A stretch of 64,000 bases of DNA, from positions 124,001-188,000 of the forward strand of contig NZ_LRML01000003.1 of assembly GCF_001647285.1 (NCBI RefSeq), given 5' to 3'. The translations under genes and the position numbers were made by a program. The notes beneath the pieces were generated by a model, which saw only the letters and a program-made list of their open reading frames with translations, made no database searches and was not told the origin of the DNA. The DNA comes from Rufibacter roseus (GTDB lineage: Bacteria; Bacteroidota; Bacteroidia; Cytophagales; Hymenobacteraceae). Positions 6,433 through 22,704 of the stretch are shown here, piece after piece; the stretch's first letter is position 1, and every line of letters starts with the position of its first letter.

Positions 6433-7195
6433 CCAACTTCCGCCAGGCAAGAAAGTATACTTCGCTTCTGATTTTCACTTAGGCGTACCAACGCCTGAGA
6501 AAAGTCTGGCGCGGGAACGCAAGATTGTCCGTTGGTTAGATGAGATCAAAACAGATGCCCAAGCTATTTTCCTGCTGGGCGATATTTTTGATTTTTGGTT
6601 TGAGTACCGCCATGCTATCCCCAGAGGATTTATTCGGCTACAAGGAAAGTTAGCTGAGATAGCTGATAGTGGAATCCCTATTTACCTGTTCACCGGAAAC
6701 CATGACATGTGGATGTTTGACTACTTCCCGAAGGAGCTCAACATACCAATTGTCAGAGAGCCCGTTTCGGTTAAAATTGGGAAGCACATCTTTTACATTG
6801 GCCACGGTGACGGGCTTGGACCAAAAGATCACACCTATAAATTACTCAAGCGTGTTTTCGCCAACAAGGCATGTCAGTGGCTCTTTGCCCGTATTCATCC
6901 AAACGTGGGCATAGGGCTGGCCAACTTCTGGTCGCGCCGTAGCCGTGTGCAGAATACCAAATCTGATGAAGTTTTTATGGGTGACGAGGAGTGGCTGGTA
7001 CACTATTGTAAGGAAGTAGAACAGCGCCAGCACCACGACTTTTACGTGTTCGGGCACCGCCATCTACCCCTGGACTTGCCAATTGGAGAAAAGAGTCGCT
7101 ACCTTAATTTGGGAGAGTGGGTCAATTTTTGCTCTTACGCTGTTTATGACGGGAACGAACTTAGCCTTACGTATTTTGAAAAAGCCGAAGCTTAG
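6416..7195 (+). CDS. lpxH: UDP-2,3-diacylglucosamine diphosphatase (LpxH-like metallophosphatase)
   Basis: 259 residues from the ATG at 6416; a TTG directly before it is less likely. Calcineurin-like motifs in order: ASDFHLG, LLGDIFDFWFEY, FTGNHDMW, IGHGDGLG and FGHRH, giving all the metal-binding Asp, Asn and His residues. The DFWFEY segment after the GD motif is characteristic of LpxH, which cleaves UDP-2,3-diacylglucosamine to lipid X in lipid A synthesis at the inner membrane. The start lies inside the LUD gene and the end overlaps the next gene by 20 nt, so three genes are packed head to tail. Confidence 0.88.
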   Translation: MITPINQLPPGKKVYFASDFHLGVPTPEKSLARERKIVRWLDEIKTDAQAIFLLGDIFDFWFEYRHAIPRGFIRLQGKLAEIADSGIPIYLFTGNHDMWMFDYFPKELNIPIVREPVSVKIGKHIFYIGHGDGLGPKDHTYKLLKRVFANKACQWLFARIHPNVGIGLANFWSRRSRVQNTKSDEVFMGDEEWLVHYCKEVEQRQHHDFYVFGHRHLPLDLPIGEKSRYLNLGEWVNFCSYAVYDGNELSLTYFEKAEA

Positions 7196-8006
7196 TCTTT
7201 TTGGCTTCGCAGCCGCGCTATGTTTATTTCTCCTTACCTCATCGGTTCAGGCGCAAACTCCTGTTTTGACACTGGCCTTCCAACTTCCGGCCAAAGGTCT
7301 TAGCCTCCAGTCTATTGACCGCTTTGACCGCATCTATATGTCAGATGCCCGCCAGAACGTGCTTCAGTTAGACACCTTAGGCCAGATCACCAACACTTTT
7401 TCGCCGCCTATACAAGGCCGCGTGGCCATGGTAGAAGCCTGGAGCCCGGCTAAAATTACAGTGTTCTATGATGACCGCCAGCGGGTACAATTGCTGGACA
7501 GGTTTCTTACGCCCCTTGGCTTAGCAGATTTGCGTGAATACACCGATGGCACCATTCGGGCGGCCACGCTATCGGCAGATGACCGCCTTTGGTTATTTGA
7601 CGAGACTTCTTTTCGGCTGCTCAAGATTGATACCCGCTACACCCGCATCACCCACCAAACACCTTTGGAACTCCTGCTCAACCGCGAGCCACATGATATT
7701 ACCTTTCTGCGCGAGTACCAGAGTAAACTGTATATGGTGGACCGACTATCTGGCGTATTCGTTTTTGATAACATGGGCAACTACCAAACAAAGCTTCCTT
7801 TGCCCAATTTATCTTATGTTGGCTTTCTAGGCGAAGAGCTATATTACTTGACTGGAAACCAAATTACGTTTCAGCACCTGTACAGCCCCAAAACCCGCAC
7901 CCTTCAACTCCCTGAAACAGCCTCACCTTACCGGCAAGTTTTAGTGGGTGATAAATTTCTGTACCTGCTTACCAACACTTCTTTACTAGCTTACCGCTGG
8001 CGGTAA
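7176..8006 (+). CDS. Secreted protein of unknown function, probably beta-propeller
   Basis: 276 residues if it starts at TTG 7176 (reads MKKPKLSLFGFAAALCLFLL as the N-terminus, a good signal peptide ending at VQAQT). This start overlaps the lpxH 3' end by 20 nt; no ATG is available near the signal peptide. The mature part has repeating short beta-like blocks (IYMSDARQNVLQLD, LWLFDETSFRLLKID, LYMVDRLSGVFVFD), as in propeller proteins of the NHL/WD type, and no catalytic motif. Close packing with lpxH suggests a shared transcript. Function unknown. Confidence 0.7.
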   Translation: MKKPKLSLFGFAAALCLFLLTSSVQAQTPVLTLAFQLPAKGLSLQSIDRFDRIYMSDARQNVLQLDTLGQITNTFSPPIQGRVAMVEAWSPAKITVFYDDRQRVQLLDRFLTPLGLADLREYTDGTIRAATLSADDRLWLFDETSFRLLKIDTRYTRITHQTPLELLLNREPHDITFLREYQSKLYMVDRLSGVFVFDNMGNYQTKLPLPNLSYVGFLGEELYYLTGNQITFQHLYSPKTRTLQLPETASPYRQVLVGDKFLYLLTNTSLLAYRWR

Positions 8007-8041
8007 GAGTAATGCCTGAAGGAGTAAATAGAAGCGGGGCT

Positions 8042-8081
8042 TTTCTGAGCTGTTTTTCAAAAAGAAAGGCTAAAACAGAAA
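8042..8081. repeat. Nested palindrome family copy
   Basis: GAGCTGTTTTTCAAAAAGA core with outer TTCTG/CAGAA arms, between two convergent genes, where it could also serve as a terminator. Confidence 0.6.
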
Positions 8082-8086
8082 GTTGT

Positions 8087-8413
8087 TTATTCTTTTGATA
8101 AAAACTTAAGCCCCAGCACCCCTCCTATAATGAGCGCAATGCAGAGCAAGCGTACTAAGTCTTTGGGTTCATTAAACAATACTATACCTAAAATAGCAGT
8201 TCCCACTGCCCCTATACCCGTCCAGGAGGCATAGGCTGTTCCCAAGGGCAATGTTTTCATGGCCTGTGCCAAAAGCACGAAACTCAAGATCATGACCACC
8301 ACAGTGACCAAACTGATCCAAGGTTTGGTGAAGCCCTCTGTATATTTCAGGCCTATGGCCCATCCTATTTCACATAGCCCCGCTGCCACTAGATATAACC
8401 AAGCAGAATTCAT
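8087..8413 (-). CDS. sugE: SMR-family exporter, SugE/Gdx type
   Basis: 108 residues from ATG 8413, with an AAAGGTG ribosome site just upstream; the frame is open further but without coding character. Four transmembrane helices and the conserved Glu in the first (GLCEIGWAIGLKYTEGF). The middle (LGTAYASWTGIGAVGTAILG) matches SugE, whose members export guanidinium ions, better than EmrE-type drug pumps. I looked for a guanidine riboswitch upstream and found none of its conserved motifs. A single gene, so it would act as a homodimer. Confidence 0.88.
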   Translation of the reverse strand: MNSAWLYLVAAGLCEIGWAIGLKYTEGFTKPWISLVTVVVMILSFVLLAQAMKTLPLGTAYASWTGIGAVGTAILGIVLFNEPKDLVRLLCIALIIGGVLGLKFLSKE

Positions 8414-8581: not shown

Positions 8582-9217
8582 ATGAAAAAAGCCGCCCTTA
8601 CGTTCTGCACTTTTCTAGCCTCTGTGGTCTTTTGCTGGTCACAGACGTTTCCAGCTTCCGCAAATGAGCCAGAAACCTTGTTTCAAGGAGACGTAAACCA
8701 CTCTTTCTATATAGCTCCCTCGCTCCTGCTCACGCACTGGCAGGAACGGTCTGGCTTGATGGTGGGTGGCAAGGCAGCATGGGTCATGAACCATAGGTTT
8801 GGGATTGGCCTATCTGGCTACGGATTGGTGTCGCGCAACAACATTGGCGAGATTGCTGAAACTAATAACGCTTTTTTACAGGCCGGCTACGGTGGGGCTT
8901 ATTTTGAATACACCCCGCAGCCAAGTCGTTTGCTGCACCTAAGCTTTCCGGTTTTAATTGGTATGGGTGGGGCTGCCTATACTAATAACGCCCTAGGTAA
9001 TAACACCTCTGGTTCTTACAGCTATGAGGTGTATGACACCGACACCTTTTTCGTGTTGGAGCCCGGCGTACAGGCAGAGCTGAATCTTGCCAGATTTATG
9101 CGGCTGGGGCTAGGCGTAAGTTATAGGTTTGCCCAAGGGGTTGACCTTCCAAAATCAACCGACAAAGACATGAGCGCCCCGGCGGTCTCGCTCATTTTCA
9201 AGTTCGGCAAATTCTAA
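8582..9217 (+). CDS. Outer-membrane beta-barrel protein, unknown role
   Basis: 211 residues from ATG 8582 (MKKAALTFCTFLASVVFCWS, signal peptide). The rest alternates hydrophobic and polar residues in strands (LTHWQERSGLMVGGKAAW, FGIGLSGYGLVS) and ends in an aromatic residue (SLIFKFGKF), as outer-membrane barrels do. No specific family recognised. It lies 84 nt ahead of a LytS-type kinase in the same direction, but a functional link is not shown. Confidence 0.72.
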   Translation: MKKAALTFCTFLASVVFCWSQTFPASANEPETLFQGDVNHSFYIAPSLLLTHWQERSGLMVGGKAAWVMNHRFGIGLSGYGLVSRNNIGEIAETNNAFLQAGYGGAYFEYTPQPSRLLHLSFPVLIGMGGAAYTNNALGNNTSGSYSYEVYDTDTFFVLEPGVQAELNLARFMRLGLGVSYRFAQGVDLPKSTDKDMSAPAVSLIFKFGKF

Positions 9218-16401: not shown

Positions 16402-18057
16402 GTGGGATGTAGTTCATGTTCTAGTGGCGGCTGCGGCTCCAAAACCACTACCTCTGCCGATGGCACCGAGGTAGCAGTGGCGGGTTGCAAAAGCAACGGC
16501 GGTTGCAGCACGGGAGGCTGCAATCGATTAAATGTATTTGATTGGCTCTCAGACATGGAAATACCCGTGTCTTTCAAAGAGTTTGATGTGGTAGAGGTAC
16601 GCTTTAAAGGCGGCCGTAAAGAGTTTTTCCGGAACATTAACCGGCTGCCGCTCATTACCGGCGATGCCGTAGTAGTAGATGTACCCAATGGCCACCACAT
16701 TGGCCACGTGTCTTTAAAAGGTGAACTGGTGCGGTTGCAGATGAACAAGAAAAAGGTTCAGAACAACGACGAGATCCGGAGCATCTACCGAGTGGCCACT
16801 GAAAAAGACATGGAGAAGTTCAATGCCGCACGCGAGCAGGAATCTACCACCATGTACCGGGCCCGGGCCATTGTGCAGGAGCTCAAACTCAAGATGAAGC
16901 TCTCAGACGTAGAGTACCAAGCCGATAAAACCAAAGCCACCTTCTTTTATTCCGCTGAAGATCGTGTAGACTTCAGAGAGCTGATTAAGAAACTAGCCGA
17001 GGAATTCAAAATAAGAATTGAAATGCGCCAGATCAGCCTTCGGCACGAAGCTGGCCGTTTAGGTGGTATTGGTTCTTGCGGCCGCGAGCTCTGCTGCTCC
17101 ACGTGGCTCACTGATTTCCGCAGCGTATCTACCACTGCTGCGCGGTACCAGAACCTGTCTTTGAACCCCAGCAAGCTTTCCGGTCAGTGCGGTCGCCTCA
17201 AGTGCTGCCTCAACTATGAGCTGGAAACGTACATGGATGCCCTCAAAGACATCCCGAACGTAAACCGGCCGCTGCAAACAAAAGCTGGTGAGGCCTACTT
17301 GCAGAAGACTGACATCTTCCGTCGCATCATGTGGTTCGGTTACCGCGGCGACAGCAACTGGTTTCCGGTAACTGTGGAGCGCGTGCACGAAGTCATGAAA
17401 ATGAATTCTGCCGGCGACATGCCTGAGAACCTGGCTGAGGAAGTAAAAAAGCAGCAACAGGCGGAAGTAGTTGACTTTGTAGAAGCCCTTGAGGGGAATC
17501 TGGATCGCCTGGACGATCAATACAAAAACAAGAAAAAGCGTAACAAGAAAAAAGGAAAAGGCGGCAGCAGCGGAACAACCACGGCAGCAGCAGAGGTATT
17601 GGCTCAGGCTTCACCAACCCCTGAAACCCGCAAAGACAGACCTTCTGGCCGTCTGAACCTGGGCGAGCCCAGACCGAAGCCTGAGCGGCCCGGAGCCCGA
17701 CCGGCAGCGGCTGAAAACAAGCCAAGGCCAGAGCGCGGCGATCAACCCAAAGGACAGTCACAGCCTTCTGGCAAAAACCGTCCGGAGCGTGACCCTAACA
17801 GGCAGCCAAGGGAGAACCGACCACCCCGCGCCGAAAAGCCGCAGGGCCAGAATGCACGGCCGCCTCAGGAGCAACGGCAAAAGCAGGCTCCTCAAGCAAC
17901 CGCACCTACCAGTTCCGCTGCAGTAGAGGGAGCAGAGCGTACTCCGCGCCCAGAAGGTGAGCAGCGGCCTCGGAAAAGCCGTAACCGGAATCATAGAAAC
18001 CGTAAACCCGGTAATTCTGCCAATCCATCTTCCACAACAAAAGGTGACGCGTCATGA
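16402..18057 (+). CDS. ricT: PSP1-domain protein, RicT (YaaT) homologue
   Basis: 551 residues from GTG 16402. A short Cys/Gly-rich N-terminus is followed by a PSP1/RicT core (about residues 50-340), with Cys-rich blocks GSCGRELCCSTWL and SGQCGRLKCCLNYE that in RicT bind iron-sulfur clusters. Residues 370-551 are a disordered Pro/Arg/Lys/Gln-rich tail, much longer than in Bacillus RicT. RicT belongs to a complex that controls RNase Y-dependent mRNA maturation in Firmicutes; in Bacteroidota the role is not settled. The stop overlaps gldH by 4 nt (ATGA), a conserved neighbour pair. Confidence 0.88.
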   Translation: MGCSSCSSGGCGSKTTTSADGTEVAVAGCKSNGGCSTGGCNRLNVFDWLSDMEIPVSFKEFDVVEVRFKGGRKEFFRNINRLPLITGDAVVVDVPNGHHIGHVSLKGELVRLQMNKKKVQNNDEIRSIYRVATEKDMEKFNAAREQESTTMYRARAIVQELKLKMKLSDVEYQADKTKATFFYSAEDRVDFRELIKKLAEEFKIRIEMRQISLRHEAGRLGGIGSCGRELCCSTWLTDFRSVSTTAARYQNLSLNPSKLSGQCGRLKCCLNYELETYMDALKDIPNVNRPLQTKAGEAYLQKTDIFRRIMWFGYRGDSNWFPVTVERVHEVMKMNSAGDMPENLAEEVKKQQQAEVVDFVEALEGNLDRLDDQYKNKKKRNKKKGKGGSSGTTTAAAEVLAQASPTPETRKDRPSGRLNLGEPRPKPERPGARPAAAENKPRPERGDQPKGQSQPSGKNRPERDPNRQPRENRPPRAEKPQGQNARPPQEQRQKQAPQATAPTSSAAVEGAERTPRPEGEQRPRKSRNRNHRNRKPGNSANPSSTTKGDAS

Positions 18058-18542
18058 AAAAAAACAGTTTAGTCTTTGCCACGCTGTTCTGTCTCATAGG
18101 CCTGCTTACCAGCTGCGATGCAAACCGGGTATATGAGGAGAATCAAGACATAAAAGAAAGCTTGTGGCCTATAGATCTGGCCCCCTCGTTTACTTTTGAG
18201 ATAGCTGACACTACCGCCCAGTACAATGTGTATTTCAACGTACGAAATGCCCTTCAGTACCCATTTTACAACTTGTACCTTCGGCATTACCTCATTGGCC
18301 CAGATGGAAAGCAAATAAGCTCGGCGCTGCATGAAATGCTCCTCATGGACCCTAAAACCGGCGAACCCAGAGGCAGCGGAGCAGGCGATTTGTTTGACCA
18401 CAGATTCAGAGCATTGAAGAATATTAGATTTGAGCGGTCGGGCACTTATAAACTTATTCTAAACCAGTATATGCGCCAAGATCCCTTACCCGGTATTATG
18501 TCTATTGGCGTAAGGGTAGAGAAGGTGCAGGCTCAGCAATAA
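18054..18542 (+). CDS. gldH: Gliding motility lipoprotein GldH
   Basis: 162 residues, start ATG 18054 overlapping ricT. Lipoprotein signal with lipobox LLTSC (Cys21). The body matches GldH: ENQDIKESLWPIDLAPSF, YNLYLRHYLIGPDG and RSGTYKLILNQYMRQDPLPG. GldH is needed for gliding and chitin use in Flavobacterium and sits at the envelope. It fits with the T9SS cargo, adhesin and PorP genes elsewhere in this window. Confidence 0.9.
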   Translation: MKKNSLVFATLFCLIGLLTSCDANRVYEENQDIKESLWPIDLAPSFTFEIADTTAQYNVYFNVRNALQYPFYNLYLRHYLIGPDGKQISSALHEMLLMDPKTGEPRGSGAGDLFDHRFRALKNIRFERSGTYKLILNQYMRQDPLPGIMSIGVRVEKVQAQQ

Positions 18543-18699: not shown

Positions 18700-19764
18700 A
18701 TGCGCATACTCTTAGAAATACTTGGCGGAATAGGTATTCTGTTTTCTTTACTCACCCTGGTGAAAAGCACCCAGTGGTGGATAAGAATGATGGATTTCCC
18801 GAGGGTACAGGTCATGACGTTGTTGCTCATGGTTATGGGGCTTTATGGCTGGCTGTACGGGTATGAAATGCTTTCGCAGAAGCTGTTTGCTGGGTTAATG
18901 GTGGTAGCCATTATCAACCAGGCTGTGCATGTGTATAAATTCACGCCTCTTGTACGCCCACAGGCGCTGCGCTCTAAAATTAAGGCTCCAAAAAACTCCT
19001 TCGGGTTTATGATCTCCAACGTGCGTATGTCCAATAAAAGGTACGACCGTTTCTTGCAGGTGGTGCGTGAAACAGATCCTGACATGCTGCTGATCAACGA
19101 GCCCAACCATGCTTGGGCCCAAGCCATTTCAGAGTTAGATGAACGGTACCCGTACTGCATCAAAAAGCCTCTGGAAAACACCTATGGTATGATGTTCTTC
19201 AGCAAGTTTAAGCTGAGCAATACTGAGGTTAGGTATTTGGTAGAAGATGGCATTCCATCTTTTTATGCCGTGGTGGAATTGCCTACCGGCAAGAAGTTTG
19301 ATCTGTTTACGGTGCACCCACAGCCGCCCCACCTGAACAAAGACACAGACCTGCGCGAGGCTGAGCTGCTAACCGTTGCTAAAATGGCGAAAGACTCCCC
19401 TTACCCAAGTATTGTAGCCGGTGATTTGAATGATGTAGCCTGGTCTTACACCACTAACCTCTTCCGGAAGATCAGCGGCCTTTTGGATCCCCGCATTGGC
19501 CGAGGCTTCTACAACACGTACAATGCCTTTGTTCCGTTCTTCAGATATTCTCTGGACCACGTTTTCTATGACCCTGCATTCCGCCTTATAAGAATGAAGT
19601 GCTTGGGGTTCTTCGGCTCTGACCATTTCCCTATTTTTATTCGCCTCAGCTATGAGCCTCAGGAAGCCAAGGAGCATGAGGTACCTACCCCAGACGAGGA
19701 AGAGAAAGAAGACGCTGATGAATTGCTGCACCCTGACCCAGATAAGCTACAGCGAAAGGGATAA
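18700..19764 (+). CDS. Endonuclease/exonuclease/phosphatase family protein, membrane-anchored
   Basis: 354 residues, ATG 18700. Three hydrophobic segments in the first 80 residues, then an EEP-fold domain (from about 100): ISNVRMSN with the early Asn, DMLLINEPNH with the metal-binding Glu, LFTVHPQPP, VAGDLNDVAWS and GSDHFPIFI with the catalytic His. A charged Asp/Glu/Lys tail of 30 residues ends it. The active site likely faces the periplasm; the substrate (nucleic acid, lipid or sugar phosphate) is unknown. Confidence 0.87.
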   Translation: MRILLEILGGIGILFSLLTLVKSTQWWIRMMDFPRVQVMTLLLMVMGLYGWLYGYEMLSQKLFAGLMVVAIINQAVHVYKFTPLVRPQALRSKIKAPKNSFGFMISNVRMSNKRYDRFLQVVRETDPDMLLINEPNHAWAQAISELDERYPYCIKKPLENTYGMMFFSKFKLSNTEVRYLVEDGIPSFYAVVELPTGKKFDLFTVHPQPPHLNKDTDLREAELLTVAKMAKDSPYPSIVAGDLNDVAWSYTTNLFRKISGLLDPRIGRGFYNTYNAFVPFFRYSLDHVFYDPAFRLIRMKCLGFFGSDHFPIFIRLSYEPQEAKEHEVPTPDEEEKEDADELLHPDPDKLQRKG

Positions 19765-19936
19765 ACCTGATGTGTAGAGGAGTAAATATATTCCTATTTC
19801 ACTCCCAACAATTATCTCCAAGGCCTCCTCCTAAAGCTCTATAACAAACCAACTTCTGCTATTCGGTAAGTTTCAGAGCTAAAAATGACAACTGTGATTT
19901 AACATTCCCATTCTTAACCATGCTACAAACCACTCG

Positions 19937-20016
19937 TATAGAATAAGCACTTGCCATAGTGTCTCTTCTTCTTTAATGCTATGGCAATGTTAAGCTTACC
20001 CAACTAACATTCTATA
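19937..20016 (+). promoter_or_regulatory. Nested inverted repeats upstream of the low-complexity RGG gene
   Basis: Outer pair TATAGAAT (19937-19944) and ATTCTATA (20009-20016); inner pair TTGCCATAG (19951-19959) and CTATGGCAA (19979-19987). Both are exact. This could be a leader hairpin or an operator. The ribosome site TAAGGAG follows at 20025-20031. Confidence 0.5.
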
Positions 20017-20040
20017 ACCATTAACTAAGGAGAATTCGCT

Positions 20041-22116
20041 ATGAAAGAAAATCAGAATGACGATCAGAACAACTTAAATTCATCTACCGGCTCAGGCAGT
20101 AAGTCAAATTCTAAATCATCTTCATCGGGCAGCACAGGTAAAACCTCCACCTCAGACGCCAATATTTCTGGAGTAAGCGCCTCTGGTATTTCGGGCTCTA
20201 CTACTAGCATGGGTACCGGCGCCTCTTCAGGCAATACCGGAGAAAGCGTTACCAACAGCTCAACTTCGGGCTCAGCCTCTTCAAAGAAATCTTCTACCTC
20301 TTCGGGTAGCAGCAAAGGCAGCACCAGCAAATCTTCTACGCCTAAGGCAAGTTCAAAATCTGGTGCCTCTTCTACTTCATCTAAATCTGGCAGTGGTAAA
20401 TCTGCTACCGGCAAATCTTCCTCATCTTCTAAAGGAAGTTCTTCTTCAGATATGAGCAGCAACAGCGACTCAATGTCAGGCTCATCAGCCTCAATGGGTG
20501 GCAACATGGGTTATGGCAGCTCACAAGGCGGCGACATGGGAAACCAGAGCAGCTCTTCAATGCAAAACGGAGGAAACTCCAACAGTAACCAAGGCAACTA
20601 CGGATCTACTGACATGGGTTCACGGGGAGGCTACGGCAGCCAAGGTGGCTCTAACTACGGACAAGGTGGTTATGGCAACTCTGGCTCACAAGGAGGAAAC
20701 GACAGCAACAACCAAGGCTATGGTTCGCAAGGCGGAGGCAACTACGGAGGCCAAGGCGGCTACGGCGGTTATGGCCAGGGCAACTATGGAGGCCAAGGAG
20801 GCTACGAGTCTCAAGGCGGCACCTACGGCGGAAGCTTCGGTGGCGGAAACTACAACACCCACGACGACCAAAACTACCGTGGCGGCTCTATGGGCGGCGG
20901 AAACTACGGCGGCAACTATGGCTCTATGGGCCAAAACCCGCAGGGCATGAGCTCACAAGGCGGTTACTCCGGCAACGCTTCTCGCTCAGAATCTGATCGT
21001 GGCGGTTACAGCAACTACGGTGGCTCAGGTTACTATGGAAACCAGATGGGCTACGGCTCTGAAAGCGGCTATGGCATGCACGGCAACGACCACGGAAGAA
21101 GCGGCGGCGGATACAGCCAAGGCTACAGCAACCAAAACAGCAGCTCTTACGGGTCAATGGGCTCCAGAGGAGGTTCTTATGGTGAAGAATACGGATCAAG
21201 AGGTGGCTCGCGCGGCGGCTATGACGGCAACTCTGATTTTGACGGAGGTTACAGCCAGGGCGGAAACCGCTACAGCACCCAAAACCAAGGTGGTTCCCGC
21301 TACGGCCAAGGTGGCTACGGCAACTCGGGCTCAATGGGAGGCGGCAGCAACTATGGCTCTAGCTCCTATGGCAATGACATGGGTTCAAGAGGCGGCTACG
21401 GCTCTAACATGGGCTCAGACATGGGATCACGTGGCGGTTACGGTTCATCTAGAGGCGGTAACCAAGAGTGGCAAGGAAGCTCACGTGGTGGCTACCAAGG
21501 CGGCGACAGCAGCGGCTACGGCTCAATGAGCGGCGGAAACTATGGTGACCGCGGTGGTTACAGCACGTATAACGCCCAAGGTGGCGACTTTGGGTCACGT
21601 AGCTCGCAAGGTGGCTACGGTTCACAAGGCGGCTCTTCTATGGGCGGCAGTAACTATGGCGGCTCAAACTACGGGTCTGGCTCTGGATCACAAGGTGGCA
21701 ACTACGGTGGCTATGGCGGAGGCAGCTTCGGCGGCTCTAACTATGGCAACCTAGGCAATGACATGGGCTCTCGTGGCGGATATCAATCTTCCGGAACTGG
21801 CTCTAGAAACGGAGCACAGGAACATGGCCACGGCGGTTCTATGACCGGTGGTGGATATGGTGGCCAAAACCGTGACTACGGCATGGGCGGCTACGGCCAA
21901 GGCAACAGCAGCCAAGGTTCTTCTAGCGGCTATGGTTCGTCATCATCAGACATGGGCTCACGCGGAGGCTACGGCAGCCGAAACCAAGGCGGCATGTCTA
22001 GCTACGGCGACGGCGGCTCTGGCTATGAAAACCGTTCACAGTACCGCGACAATGACGATGATTATTCAAGCGGCAACTACCGCGGCGGACGTTCCTCCAG
22101 AAACGACCGTGACTAA
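20041..22116 (+). CDS. Gly/Ser/Tyr/Arg-rich low-complexity protein (FUS-like, RGG repeats), unknown function
   Basis: 691 residues from ATG 20041 with a good ribosome site. Residues 1-155 are almost only Ser, Thr, Gly, Lys and Ala. From about 155 to the end the chain is Gly, Tyr, Ser, Asn and Gln with regularly spaced Arg: about 14 RGG triplets and five copies of DMGSRGGY, plus many GGYGS, NYGG and SQGG units. The tail is charged (RDNDDDYSSGNYRGGRSS). There is no Cys, one Trp, very few large hydrophobic residues, no signal peptide and no membrane helix. This is the composition of eukaryotic FUS/hnRNP low-complexity domains that phase-separate with RNA. Alternatives are a structural or stress-related glycine-rich protein. 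The coding frame is real: composition is consistent to a defined stop, and a terminator follows. Confidence 0.85.
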   Translation: MKENQNDDQNNLNSSTGSGSKSNSKSSSSGSTGKTSTSDANISGVSASGISGSTTSMGTGASSGNTGESVTNSSTSGSASSKKSSTSSGSSKGSTSKSSTPKASSKSGASSTSSKSGSGKSATGKSSSSSKGSSSSDMSSNSDSMSGSSASMGGNMGYGSSQGGDMGNQSSSSMQNGGNSNSNQGNYGSTDMGSRGGYGSQGGSNYGQGGYGNSGSQGGNDSNNQGYGSQGGGNYGGQGGYGGYGQGNYGGQGGYESQGGTYGGSFGGGNYNTHDDQNYRGGSMGGGNYGGNYGSMGQNPQGMSSQGGYSGNASRSESDRGGYSNYGGSGYYGNQMGYGSESGYGMHGNDHGRSGGGYSQGYSNQNSSSYGSMGSRGGSYGEEYGSRGGSRGGYDGNSDFDGGYSQGGNRYSTQNQGGSRYGQGGYGNSGSMGGGSNYGSSSYGNDMGSRGGYGSNMGSDMGSRGGYGSSRGGNQEWQGSSRGGYQGGDSSGYGSMSGGNYGDRGGYSTYNAQGGDFGSRSSQGGYGSQGGSSMGGSNYGGSNYGSGSGSQGGNYGGYGGGSFGGSNYGNLGNDMGSRGGYQSSGTGSRNGAQEHGHGGSMTGGGYGGQNRDYGMGGYGQGNSSQGSSSGYGSSSSDMGSRGGYGSRNQGGMSSYGDGGSGYENRSQYRDNDDDYSSGNYRGGRSSRNDRD

Positions 22117-22135
22117 TTAACTGTCTTTAGAACCT

Positions 22136-22173
22136 ACAAAAGCTGCTGAAATTCAGCAAGGCCTTTTGTTTTT
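22136..22173 (+). terminator. Terminator of the low-complexity RGG gene
   Basis: ACAAAAG pairs with CTTTTGT, with an inner GCTGAA/TTCAGC stem, followed by a T-run. It lies 20 nt after the stop. Confidence 0.8.
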
Positions 22174-22260
22174 GGCACCTCCGCTTTTTACAAATGACAG
22201 CAACATCTATTCATAATACACTAACACCGTAGCATCTTTTAGTGTTGTGATTTTCAAAAT

Positions 22261-22288
22261 GTAGGGACAGGTGGCGACCTGTCCTAAA
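22261..22288. repeat. GGACAGG palindrome, copy 1
   Basis: GTAGGGACAGGTGGCGACCT followed by GTCC. An inverted copy is at 28953-28978. Confidence 0.65.
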
Positions 22289-22361
22289 CGGCAGCATTAG
22301 CTCTATCATTAGAGCCGTGGAAATATTTTTGAGAACGGGATCAGCAATTCGTGGACCAGCA

Positions 22362-22404
22362 GGTGTAAACATCCCCCTTCGCCCCCTTCAAAGGGGGAAT
22401 CTGC
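22362..22404. repeat. CCCCCTT dispersed element, copy 1
   Basis: GTGTAAACATCCCCCTTC then GCCCCCTTCAAAGGGGGAAT. Other copies are at 28803-28846 (inverted) and 59201-59240. Confidence 0.65.
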
Positions 22405-22578
22405 ATAGAAAAACATTGTTAGGGAATTTGAAAAATGAAAGGAGGTTCTGATAAAAGGTTTTATAAATAAAAGGAGAGGCTACAATTTCAAGTTACGCTT
22501 ATAGTTGTCTCAATTCTCATGACCATAAATAAGCAAAGCATGCTTTCCTGTACTTCCGCAATGAGATATGCTAGCTAT

Positions 22579-22614
22579 GTTCTTAGCCTATTTCTAAAAA
22601 ATAAGCTAAAAACA
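22579..22614. repeat. Weak nested palindrome family copy
   Basis: TTCTTAGCCTATTTCT then AAAATAAGCTAAAAAC. Confidence 0.5.
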
Positions 22615-22704
22615 TAATTTGGTAGGTATAACTAATTGCTTGGTGTAACGGCTAAGAAATGGGTAAAACAGGAGACCCTGTCAGAAAATTTGAAGTATAA
22701 TTAA

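Follow-up and report, generated by a model that had tools for sequence, protein, structure and literature searches.

A stretch of 64,000 nucleotides (the window) lying inside the 5.1 Mb draft genome of Rufibacter roseus carries a gene for a 691-residue protein of very low complexity, abbreviated here as LCP (low-complexity protein). With good confidence, LCP can be regarded as a stress-controlled, disordered cytosolic protein, whatever its mode of action. The more specific reading proposed here, with a probability of roughly 0.45, is that a cytosolic, disordered stress protein controlled by an extracytoplasmic function (ECF) sigma factor developed into a polymer of the sticker-spacer type in three genera, Rufibacter, g2, and g3, where it would condense under stress. 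The computed support consists of predicted disorder, purifying selection, synteny across the family, a single conserved motif, a conserved promoter, the neighbourhood of a cold-shock gene (csp) in four genera, and the patterning of the stickers. Throughout, g1 stands for the genus Rufibacter, and g2 to g6 for five further genera of the same bacterial family.

LCP is made up of 30% Gly, 24% Ser, 9% Asn, 9% Tyr, and 6% Gln, and contains no Cys. It was compared with the other open reading frames (ORFs) of at least 100 residues in an 881 kb sample (17%) of the Rufibacter roseus genome. Of these 649 ORFs in all, none has a residue entropy as low as that of LCP (3.08 bits), and no other holds four or more RGG triplets. 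The preliminary description, made from the letters of the window, gave 691 residues, about 14 RGG triplets, and five DMGSRGGY repeats, and counting in the ORF returned these same figures, the repeats lying at residues 191, 446, 460, 574, and 637. Other short motifs of the sticker type are also abundant, with 28 [GS]Y[GS] and 12 [YF]GG in addition to the 14 RGG. The Ser/Thr/Lys/Gly-rich N-terminal third that had been described does exist as a stretch, but it spans about residues 1–150, or 22% of the protein, and not a third. As only six of the 691 residues are Ile, Leu, or Val, LCP has no hydrophobic stretch, and its N terminus is hydrophilic. The remark that neither a signal peptide nor a membrane helix is visible is consistent with this: judged by composition, with no signal-peptide program run, no hydrophobic N-terminal stretch was found in LCP or in the inspected homologues. 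The absence of a folded domain, also claimed at the outset, was confirmed by searches of Pfam, NCBIfam, and PDB, which gave no match to LCP up to E = 10, and by an AlphaFold2 prediction using 16 orthologues, in which the mean predicted local distance difference test score (pLDDT) was 38.5 and no residue reached 70.

An orthologue is present in all 16 genus genomes, and a search with the full-length sequence gave no match in the remaining 43 of the 59 genomes searched. LCP has the same flanking genes in ten of ten relatives, which comprise nine Rufibacter records and Sabulibacter ruber. Residues 1–150 form the most variable part of the protein in the genus (mean pairwise amino acid difference of 0.44), with a TPKA at residues 100–103 that is invariant across the 16 proteins. 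Residues 303–345, by comparison, make up a near-invariant core, in which 40 gap-free columns hold a single amino acid each while 32 of these 40 use more than one codon; the mean pairwise difference is 0.38 at four-fold sites versus 0.025 for amino acids. These figures show purifying selection on the LCP protein. A functionless product of slippage, its repeats expanded neutrally, can practically be discounted. Such an origin would account for the repeats and for the variation in orthologue length, but the five DMGSRGGY copies all have different nucleotide sequences and are therefore not fresh duplications, the amino acids of the core stay near-invariant despite codon change, and a promoter and a motif are kept across genera (see below). 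The differing repeat DNA and the codon and amino acid data of the core already contradict it.

Sequence search alone confines LCP to its genus: a profile of the core, run against 204 family genomes, matched strongly in the same 16 genomes only, with three others at E values of 0.12–0.66. Synteny was, therefore, used to trace wider homologues. The endonuclease/exonuclease/phosphatase gene upstream of LCP served as the anchor and was searched for in 19 genomes of the five other genera; the loci fetched at this step came from 11 genomes of g2, g3, and g4, the eight g5 and g6 genomes (anchors about 40% identical) being omitted. Directly after the anchor, all 11 genomes have a low-complexity ORF of 533–660 residues, with an entropy of 3.06–3.70 bits. 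Each of 27 proteins (16 from the genus and 11 from g2–g4) has a single copy of the pattern G[SG]Y.[DE]E[YM], as against 5 of 8100 shuffled sequences. When a profile of the motif region was run against the order, represented by 390 genomes from 129 genera, 73 genomes were matched at E ≤ 1, of which 63 fall inside the family, with E values of at most 4e-10 in g1–g4 and of 1.8e-4 to 0.6 in g5 and g6. The ten matches outside the family (E of 0.08–0.68) sit in open frames of 20–149 residues and were taken as chance.

A set of 104 loci, one genome each (85 from the family and 19 from other families), was then considered. The g5 and g6 loci were chosen partly by a match and partly by its absence, so that their fractions are not prevalences. 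An ORF with GGSY.[DE][EA] is present in 62 of these loci, namely, 11 of 11 in g1, 2 of 2 in g2, 18 of 18 in g3, 4 of 4 in g4, 2 of 4 in g5, and 25 of 46 in g6, and in none of the 19 loci of other families. The homologues of the five further genera share the lack of a folded domain, which the preliminary description had stated for LCP: none of 36 family members scanned, these homologues included, matched Pfam, and a more complex g6 form is likewise predicted to be unfolded (mean pLDDT of 40.6). A low-complexity protein that sequence search restricts to one genus can, thus, be a family-wide gene that synteny alone reveals.

One of the 25 g6 loci with the motif (L131) has its LCP-like ORF at 6673–8190 with the variant GSKGGSYDDEN, placed away from the usual neighbours; no csp, PSP1, or GldH gene was found in the stretch around it.

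LCP genes are preceded by a promoter-like element, AAC-N16/17-CGTAT. The form AAC-N16/17-CGTA resembles known ECF sigma promoters, such as the sigma-W type. The regions examined were up to 450 nt long and lay around the LCP open-frame start; 64 of 67 LCP genes have the element there, while shuffles predict 0.68. For comparison, four neighbouring genes contributed 235 upstream regions, of which 2 contain it. By genus, the counts are 16/16 (g1), 2/2 (g2), 18/18 (g3), 4/4 (g4), 2/2 (g5), and 22/25 (g6). As the element was first recognised in g1 and g3, the other four genera (30/33) constitute an independent test. A weight matrix was applied to the 881 kb of the own genome, where six sites above 13 bits lie within 150 nt of ORF starts (0.75 in shuffled sequence) and four exceed 15 bits near ORF starts (0.125 in shuffles); the LCP promoter, on which the matrix was trained, is one of the six. 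The enrichment is restricted to sites just upstream of ORFs, and a looser regular expression gave 30 matches versus 77 in a reversed-sequence control. Of the five other ORFs behind sites above 13 bits, the four scanned against Pfam encode a DUF326 protein, a DUF892 (YciF-type) protein, a YgjP-like protein, and a protein without match. The DUF892 and DUF326 families are associated with stress or metals.

Elements of similar form were also observed elsewhere in the same genome. A second very hydrophilic protein, of 346 residues and probably disordered, is encoded at locus L268 (C1), positions 17413–18453; it has AAC-N16-CGTACAT 57 nt upstream and no Pfam match. At locus L260 (C23), positions 119–766 hold an ECF sigma factor gene, the best NCBIfam match of which, SigH_actino, stays below the cut-off. 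Its longest frame is preceded, at a distance of 25 nt, by AAC-N15-CGTATGT, which makes this sigma factor a candidate autoregulated controller of the promoter class; nothing ties it to LCP. Positions 9037–9327 of L260 encode a short hydrophilic protein that contains AGKKGG and has no Pfam match; a weaker promoter copy (11.3 bits) precedes it.

In all 48 loci of g2, g3, g4, and g6 that hold both LCP and GldH, a divergent cold-shock gene lies upstream of LCP; its identity is based on PF00313 in the two copies scanned, and its orientation was printed for g6 and deduced from coordinates elsewhere. No csp was found at the locus in the 19 loci of other families. Rufibacter itself has six cold-shock domain (CSD) matches, on other contigs. 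It is conceivable, though doubtful, that a one-domain cold-shock protein and a divergent, domain-free, FUS-like polymer under ECF control form a two-gene ribonucleoprotein-condensate system, with docking through the motif. If this were true, the cold-shock gene and LCP would be a two-gene counterpart of the eukaryotic proteins that combine a CSD or RRM with RGG.

The composition of LCP resembles that of Gly/Tyr/Ser structural proteins, and the gliding lipoprotein gene gldH adjoins closely, so that LCP could be imagined as an adhesive or matrix polymer of the silk or cuticle kind that is secreted or sits on the cell surface. This is highly unlikely, as the N terminus is hydrophilic and without a hydrophobic stretch in the inspected members, and as 9 of the 19 loci of other families, none of which yielded the LCP motif, also carry the PSP1–GldH pair.

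Composition was compared in 44 members (16 from g1, 2 from g2, 5 from g3, 4 from g4, 2 from g5, and 15 from g6). All 44 lack Cys, contain 13–35% Gly, and have a grand average of hydropathy (GRAVY) of −1.09 to −2.05. RGG triplets number 8–16 in the 16 g1 proteins, 3 and 5 in the g2 pair, 1–7 in the five g3 proteins (up to 8 in the 18-locus g3 set), and 2–6 in the four g4 proteins, with a range of 0–6 over the 21 members of g4–g6. Three of the g6 and both g5 members are intermediate, with 3–6 RGG and 43–48 Tyr. The net charge of Rufibacter LCP is near zero. Its Tyr and Phe residues are more evenly spaced than in shuffled sequences in 16 of 16 genus proteins, with coefficients of variation of 0.45–0.65 versus about 0.92 (z of −2.1 to −3.7). 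Beyond Rufibacter, Tyr spacing reaches z ≤ −2 in 5/5 g3, 3/4 g4, 2/2 g5, and 3/15 g6 proteins.

On the condensing reading, an ECF-sigma-type promoter dedicated to LCP (AAC-N16/17-CGTAT) would drive its transcription. The evenly spaced Tyr and the Arg of RGG would act as stickers in Rufibacter, g2, and g3, with Gly, Ser, Asn, and Gln as the spacer. Under stress, abundant LCP would most likely self-associate into condensates, which perhaps recruit RNA and work alongside cold-shock proteins; the [F/Y]GG-rich disordered part of hnRNPA2 is described as binding nucleic acid (PMC9067507). Docking of a conserved partner is probably the task of the core at residues 303–345 (Rufibacter) and, throughout the family, of the single GGSYx[DE][EA] motif. 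Stress induction, condensation, RNA association, and partner docking are thus what we infer for LCP.

Several results weigh against this reading. The other 12 of the 15 aligned g6 forms are acidic (net charge of −18 to −37), with 10–17 Tyr and 0–2 RGG, and Tyr spacing is weakly even in these 12 (z of −0.3 to −1.9), in both g2 proteins (−1.7), and in one g4 protein (−0.8). Since the acidic, Tyr- and RGG-poor forms keep the promoter and the motif, FUS-type condensation cannot be the shared function of the family. The cold-shock gene is beside LCP in 0 of 11 Rufibacter and 0 of 2 g5 loci, and at 14 g6 loci csp and GldH are present but the LCP motif is not. Pfam reveals no RNA-binding fold in LCP, and an RRM search of the own draft genome gave no match. 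The promoter matrix returned 75 matches in total at 9 bits versus 75–83 in shuffles, hence no excess at this threshold. Finally, the codon adaptation index of LCP (0.517) exceeds that of just 10 of the 35 ORFs compared in the window, and ribosomal proteins lie at 0.62–0.79; relative to the values expected for its composition, it is somewhat higher than with the average codons of the window (0.466) and lower than with those of ribosomal proteins (0.666). High constitutive expression of LCP was considered as well and is unsupported, its codon adaptation being unlike that of ribosomal proteins.

The FUS-like composition is not, therefore, the conserved part of the family: locus, promoter, and motif persist in g6, and the likeness to FUS is limited mainly to g1–g3. 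The FUS-like sticker pattern put forward in the preliminary description is supported, beyond composition, by the even Tyr/Phe spacing in all 16 Rufibacter proteins, while the acidic g6 forms and the missing RNA-binding fold set bounds to it. If the two-gene system outlined above is real, the forms of this locus, which range from acidic and Tyr-poor to rich in Tyr and RGG, would make it possible to follow, one genus after another, how a condensate protein arose, in whichever direction the change went. With locus, promoter, and motif constant, g1–g6 would be natural material for finding which changes create condensation. LCP also allows the question of bacterial sticker-spacer stress condensates to be asked cleanly, with no folded domains as confounders.

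The same composition data bear on a hydrophilin-like or late embryogenesis abundant (LEA)-like role, in which LCP would stay dispersed and act as a shield under drying, osmotic, or cold stress, with neither condensate nor RNA, its Gly/Tyr/RGG look being the outcome of drift. This is a realistic possibility, although it is held at less than even odds. It agrees with the Gly content of at least 13%, the GRAVY below −1, and the absence of Cys in all 44 members, with the disorder predicted for both Rufibacter LCP and an acidic form, with a promoter common to YciF-type and DUF326 genes, and with a composition that is free to shift while promoter and motif persist. The definition of hydrophilins includes Gly above 6%, GRAVY below −1, and mean hydrophilicity above 1, and a natural hydrophilin pool is described with mean hydrophilicities of −0.3 to 1 (PMC4190154). 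A mean above 1 was found in 0 of 44 members (range of 0.06–0.62, the scale being taken as Hopp-Woods); as two of the three properties are present and the third is not, LCP was not filed as a hydrophilin. Moreover, a shield has no need for a near-invariant core of 43 residues, a single fixed motif, or evenly spaced Tyr.

Compaction of nucleic acids is an improbable alternative. In this case, the N-terminal part, with its Lys, Ser, Thr, Pro, Ala, and TPKA, would be a tail of the histone H1 type, and RGG would add contacts to DNA or RNA, as the invariance of TPKA in the 16 genus proteins and the RGG and [YF]GG counts might suggest. TPKA is, however, not conserved in 11 aligned proteins of other genera, and the net charge, about zero in Rufibacter, is far below zero in the 12 acidic g6 forms.

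Among the known systems that come near to LCP are the low-complexity domains of FUS, hnRNPA1, and hnRNPA2, which belong to eukaryotic ribonucleoprotein condensates and with which it shares Gly/Ser/Tyr/Gln disorder, RGG, [GS]Y[GS], [YF]GG, and evenly spaced aromatics. The likeness concerns a possible working mode, not kinship. Proteins of the FUS type have an RRM or zinc finger, whereas LCP is bacterial and has neither a folded domain nor a sequence match; lacking an RNA-binding fold, it is not a member of this type. AtGRP2, a glycine-rich plant protein with a cold-shock domain, and the cold-inducible CIRBP are described as combining an RNA-binding fold with a Gly/RGG-rich disordered part implicated in phase separation (PMC13261584, PMC8197425, PMC8562343). 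In contrast to these, the cold-shock domain and the Gly-rich part would be supplied here by two divergent neighbouring genes, which are apart in Rufibacter.

Hydrophilins and the KGG proteins of the YciG/YmdF type resemble LCP in being disordered, Gly-rich, free of Cys, and of GRAVY below −1, and the promoter type of LCP is shared with a DUF892 (YciF-type) gene. In E. coli, the DUF892 (YciF) family sits beside YciG. YciG is far shorter than LCP, which, in turn, differs from KGG proteins by its lack of the KGG motif and its richness in Tyr and RGG. Within the family, 128 of 204 genomes encode KGG stress proteins (PF10685), and all of these belong to g5 or g6. Kinship of LCP with this family was rejected, there being no Pfam match in LCP and no PF10685 match in the 16 genus genomes. 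Rho has a folded enzyme core. For Rho of Bacteroides thetaiotaomicron, condensate formation is reported to raise its activity (PMC13269538). Both are Bacteroidota proteins, but LCP has no folded part, and its condensation is here a proposal. Overall, we place LCP among the disordered stress proteins, its FUS-like end state being unusual. A literature search gave no publication on the LCP family among the matches listed, subscription journals being mostly uncovered.

Table 1. Features at the LCP locus, in window coordinates.
Feature	Positions	Strand	Basis or remarks
LCP, low-complexity wholly disordered protein, 691 aa	20041..22116	+	ATG start, composition, AlphaFold2, orthologues
Ser/Thr/Lys/Gly N-terminal region, residues 1–150, starting M-K-E-N-Q	20041..20490	+	Sequence; fast-evolving
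Gly/Tyr/Ser/Asn/Gln low-complexity region with RGG, residues 151–660	20491..22020	+	Sequence, even Tyr spacing
Near-invariant core, residues 303–345	20947..21075	+	Genus alignment, codon comparison
Family signature motif GSRGGSYGEEY, residues 374–384	21160..21192	+	Regular expression; variants in g5, g6
Charged C-terminal tail (Arg/Asp/Ser), residues 661–691	22021..22113	+	Sequence
ECF-type promoter-like element AACC-N15-CGTATAG (= AAC-N16-CGTAT), AACCATGCTACAAACCACTCGTATAG	19916..19941	+	Conserved upstream
Leader hairpin near presumed mRNA 5' end (arms 19951–19959 and 19979–19987)	19951..19987	+	Folding
Strong Shine-Dalgarno AAGGAG	20027..20032	+	15 of 16 genus orthologues
Endonuclease/exonuclease/phosphatase family, upstream neighbour, synteny anchor	18700..19764	+	PF03372
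GldH lipoprotein, conserved neighbour	18054..18542	+	PF14109, TIGR03511
PSP1/RicT-family protein, conserved neighbour, second synteny anchor	16402..18057	+	PF04468, NF041131

The leader between promoter and start codon (19942–20040) folds better than 200 of 200 shuffles (z of −3.75), with AAGGAG and AUG paired. A sequestering leader was nevertheless rejected, as AAGGAG and AUG are mostly paired in just 3 of the 16 genus leaders. When leaders of the genus are folded singly, a 5' hairpin comes up repeatedly, with stems that differ in sequence; the automatic leader alignment gave no consensus structure, and covariation is, therefore, unproven. An Rfam search of 19765–22700 gave no match.

Ribosomes of Bacteroidia are reported to make normally no use of Shine-Dalgarno sequences, and a strong one is described as characteristic of rpsU across Bacteroidota (PMC9976891). 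AAGGAG or AGGAG precedes the LCP start in 15/16 g1, 2/2 g2, 17/18 g3, 0/4 g4, and 0/18 g5 and g6 genes, some g6 starts being uncertain. This distribution tracks the most FUS-like lineages (g1–g3). A link between LCP and bS21-depleted ribosomes was also considered. Predicted pairing, calculated with a generic 16S tail that may differ from that of Rufibacter, was +0.3 to −2.4 kcal/mol for the rpsU genes sampled from 10 of the 16 genus genomes versus −8.2 to −9.3 kcal/mol for 15 of 16 LCP genes. As 10 of 10 rpsU genes are without a strong Shine-Dalgarno sequence, a bS21 circuit shared by LCP and rpsU is unsupported, and this link was rejected.

The signal is absent from six neighbouring genes with mapped starts in g1 (0/54), and over all g1 stretches it is found at 17 of 177 long ORFs, nine of these being LCP. 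The PSP1/RicT gene carries it in 22 of 24 g2–g4 genomes and in 0/11 g1, 0/40 g6, and 0/4 g5; a strong Shine-Dalgarno sequence is, thus, not peculiar to LCP. The PSP1/RicT protein of the window itself ends in a long Arg/Lys/Pro-rich C-terminal tail that is probably disordered.

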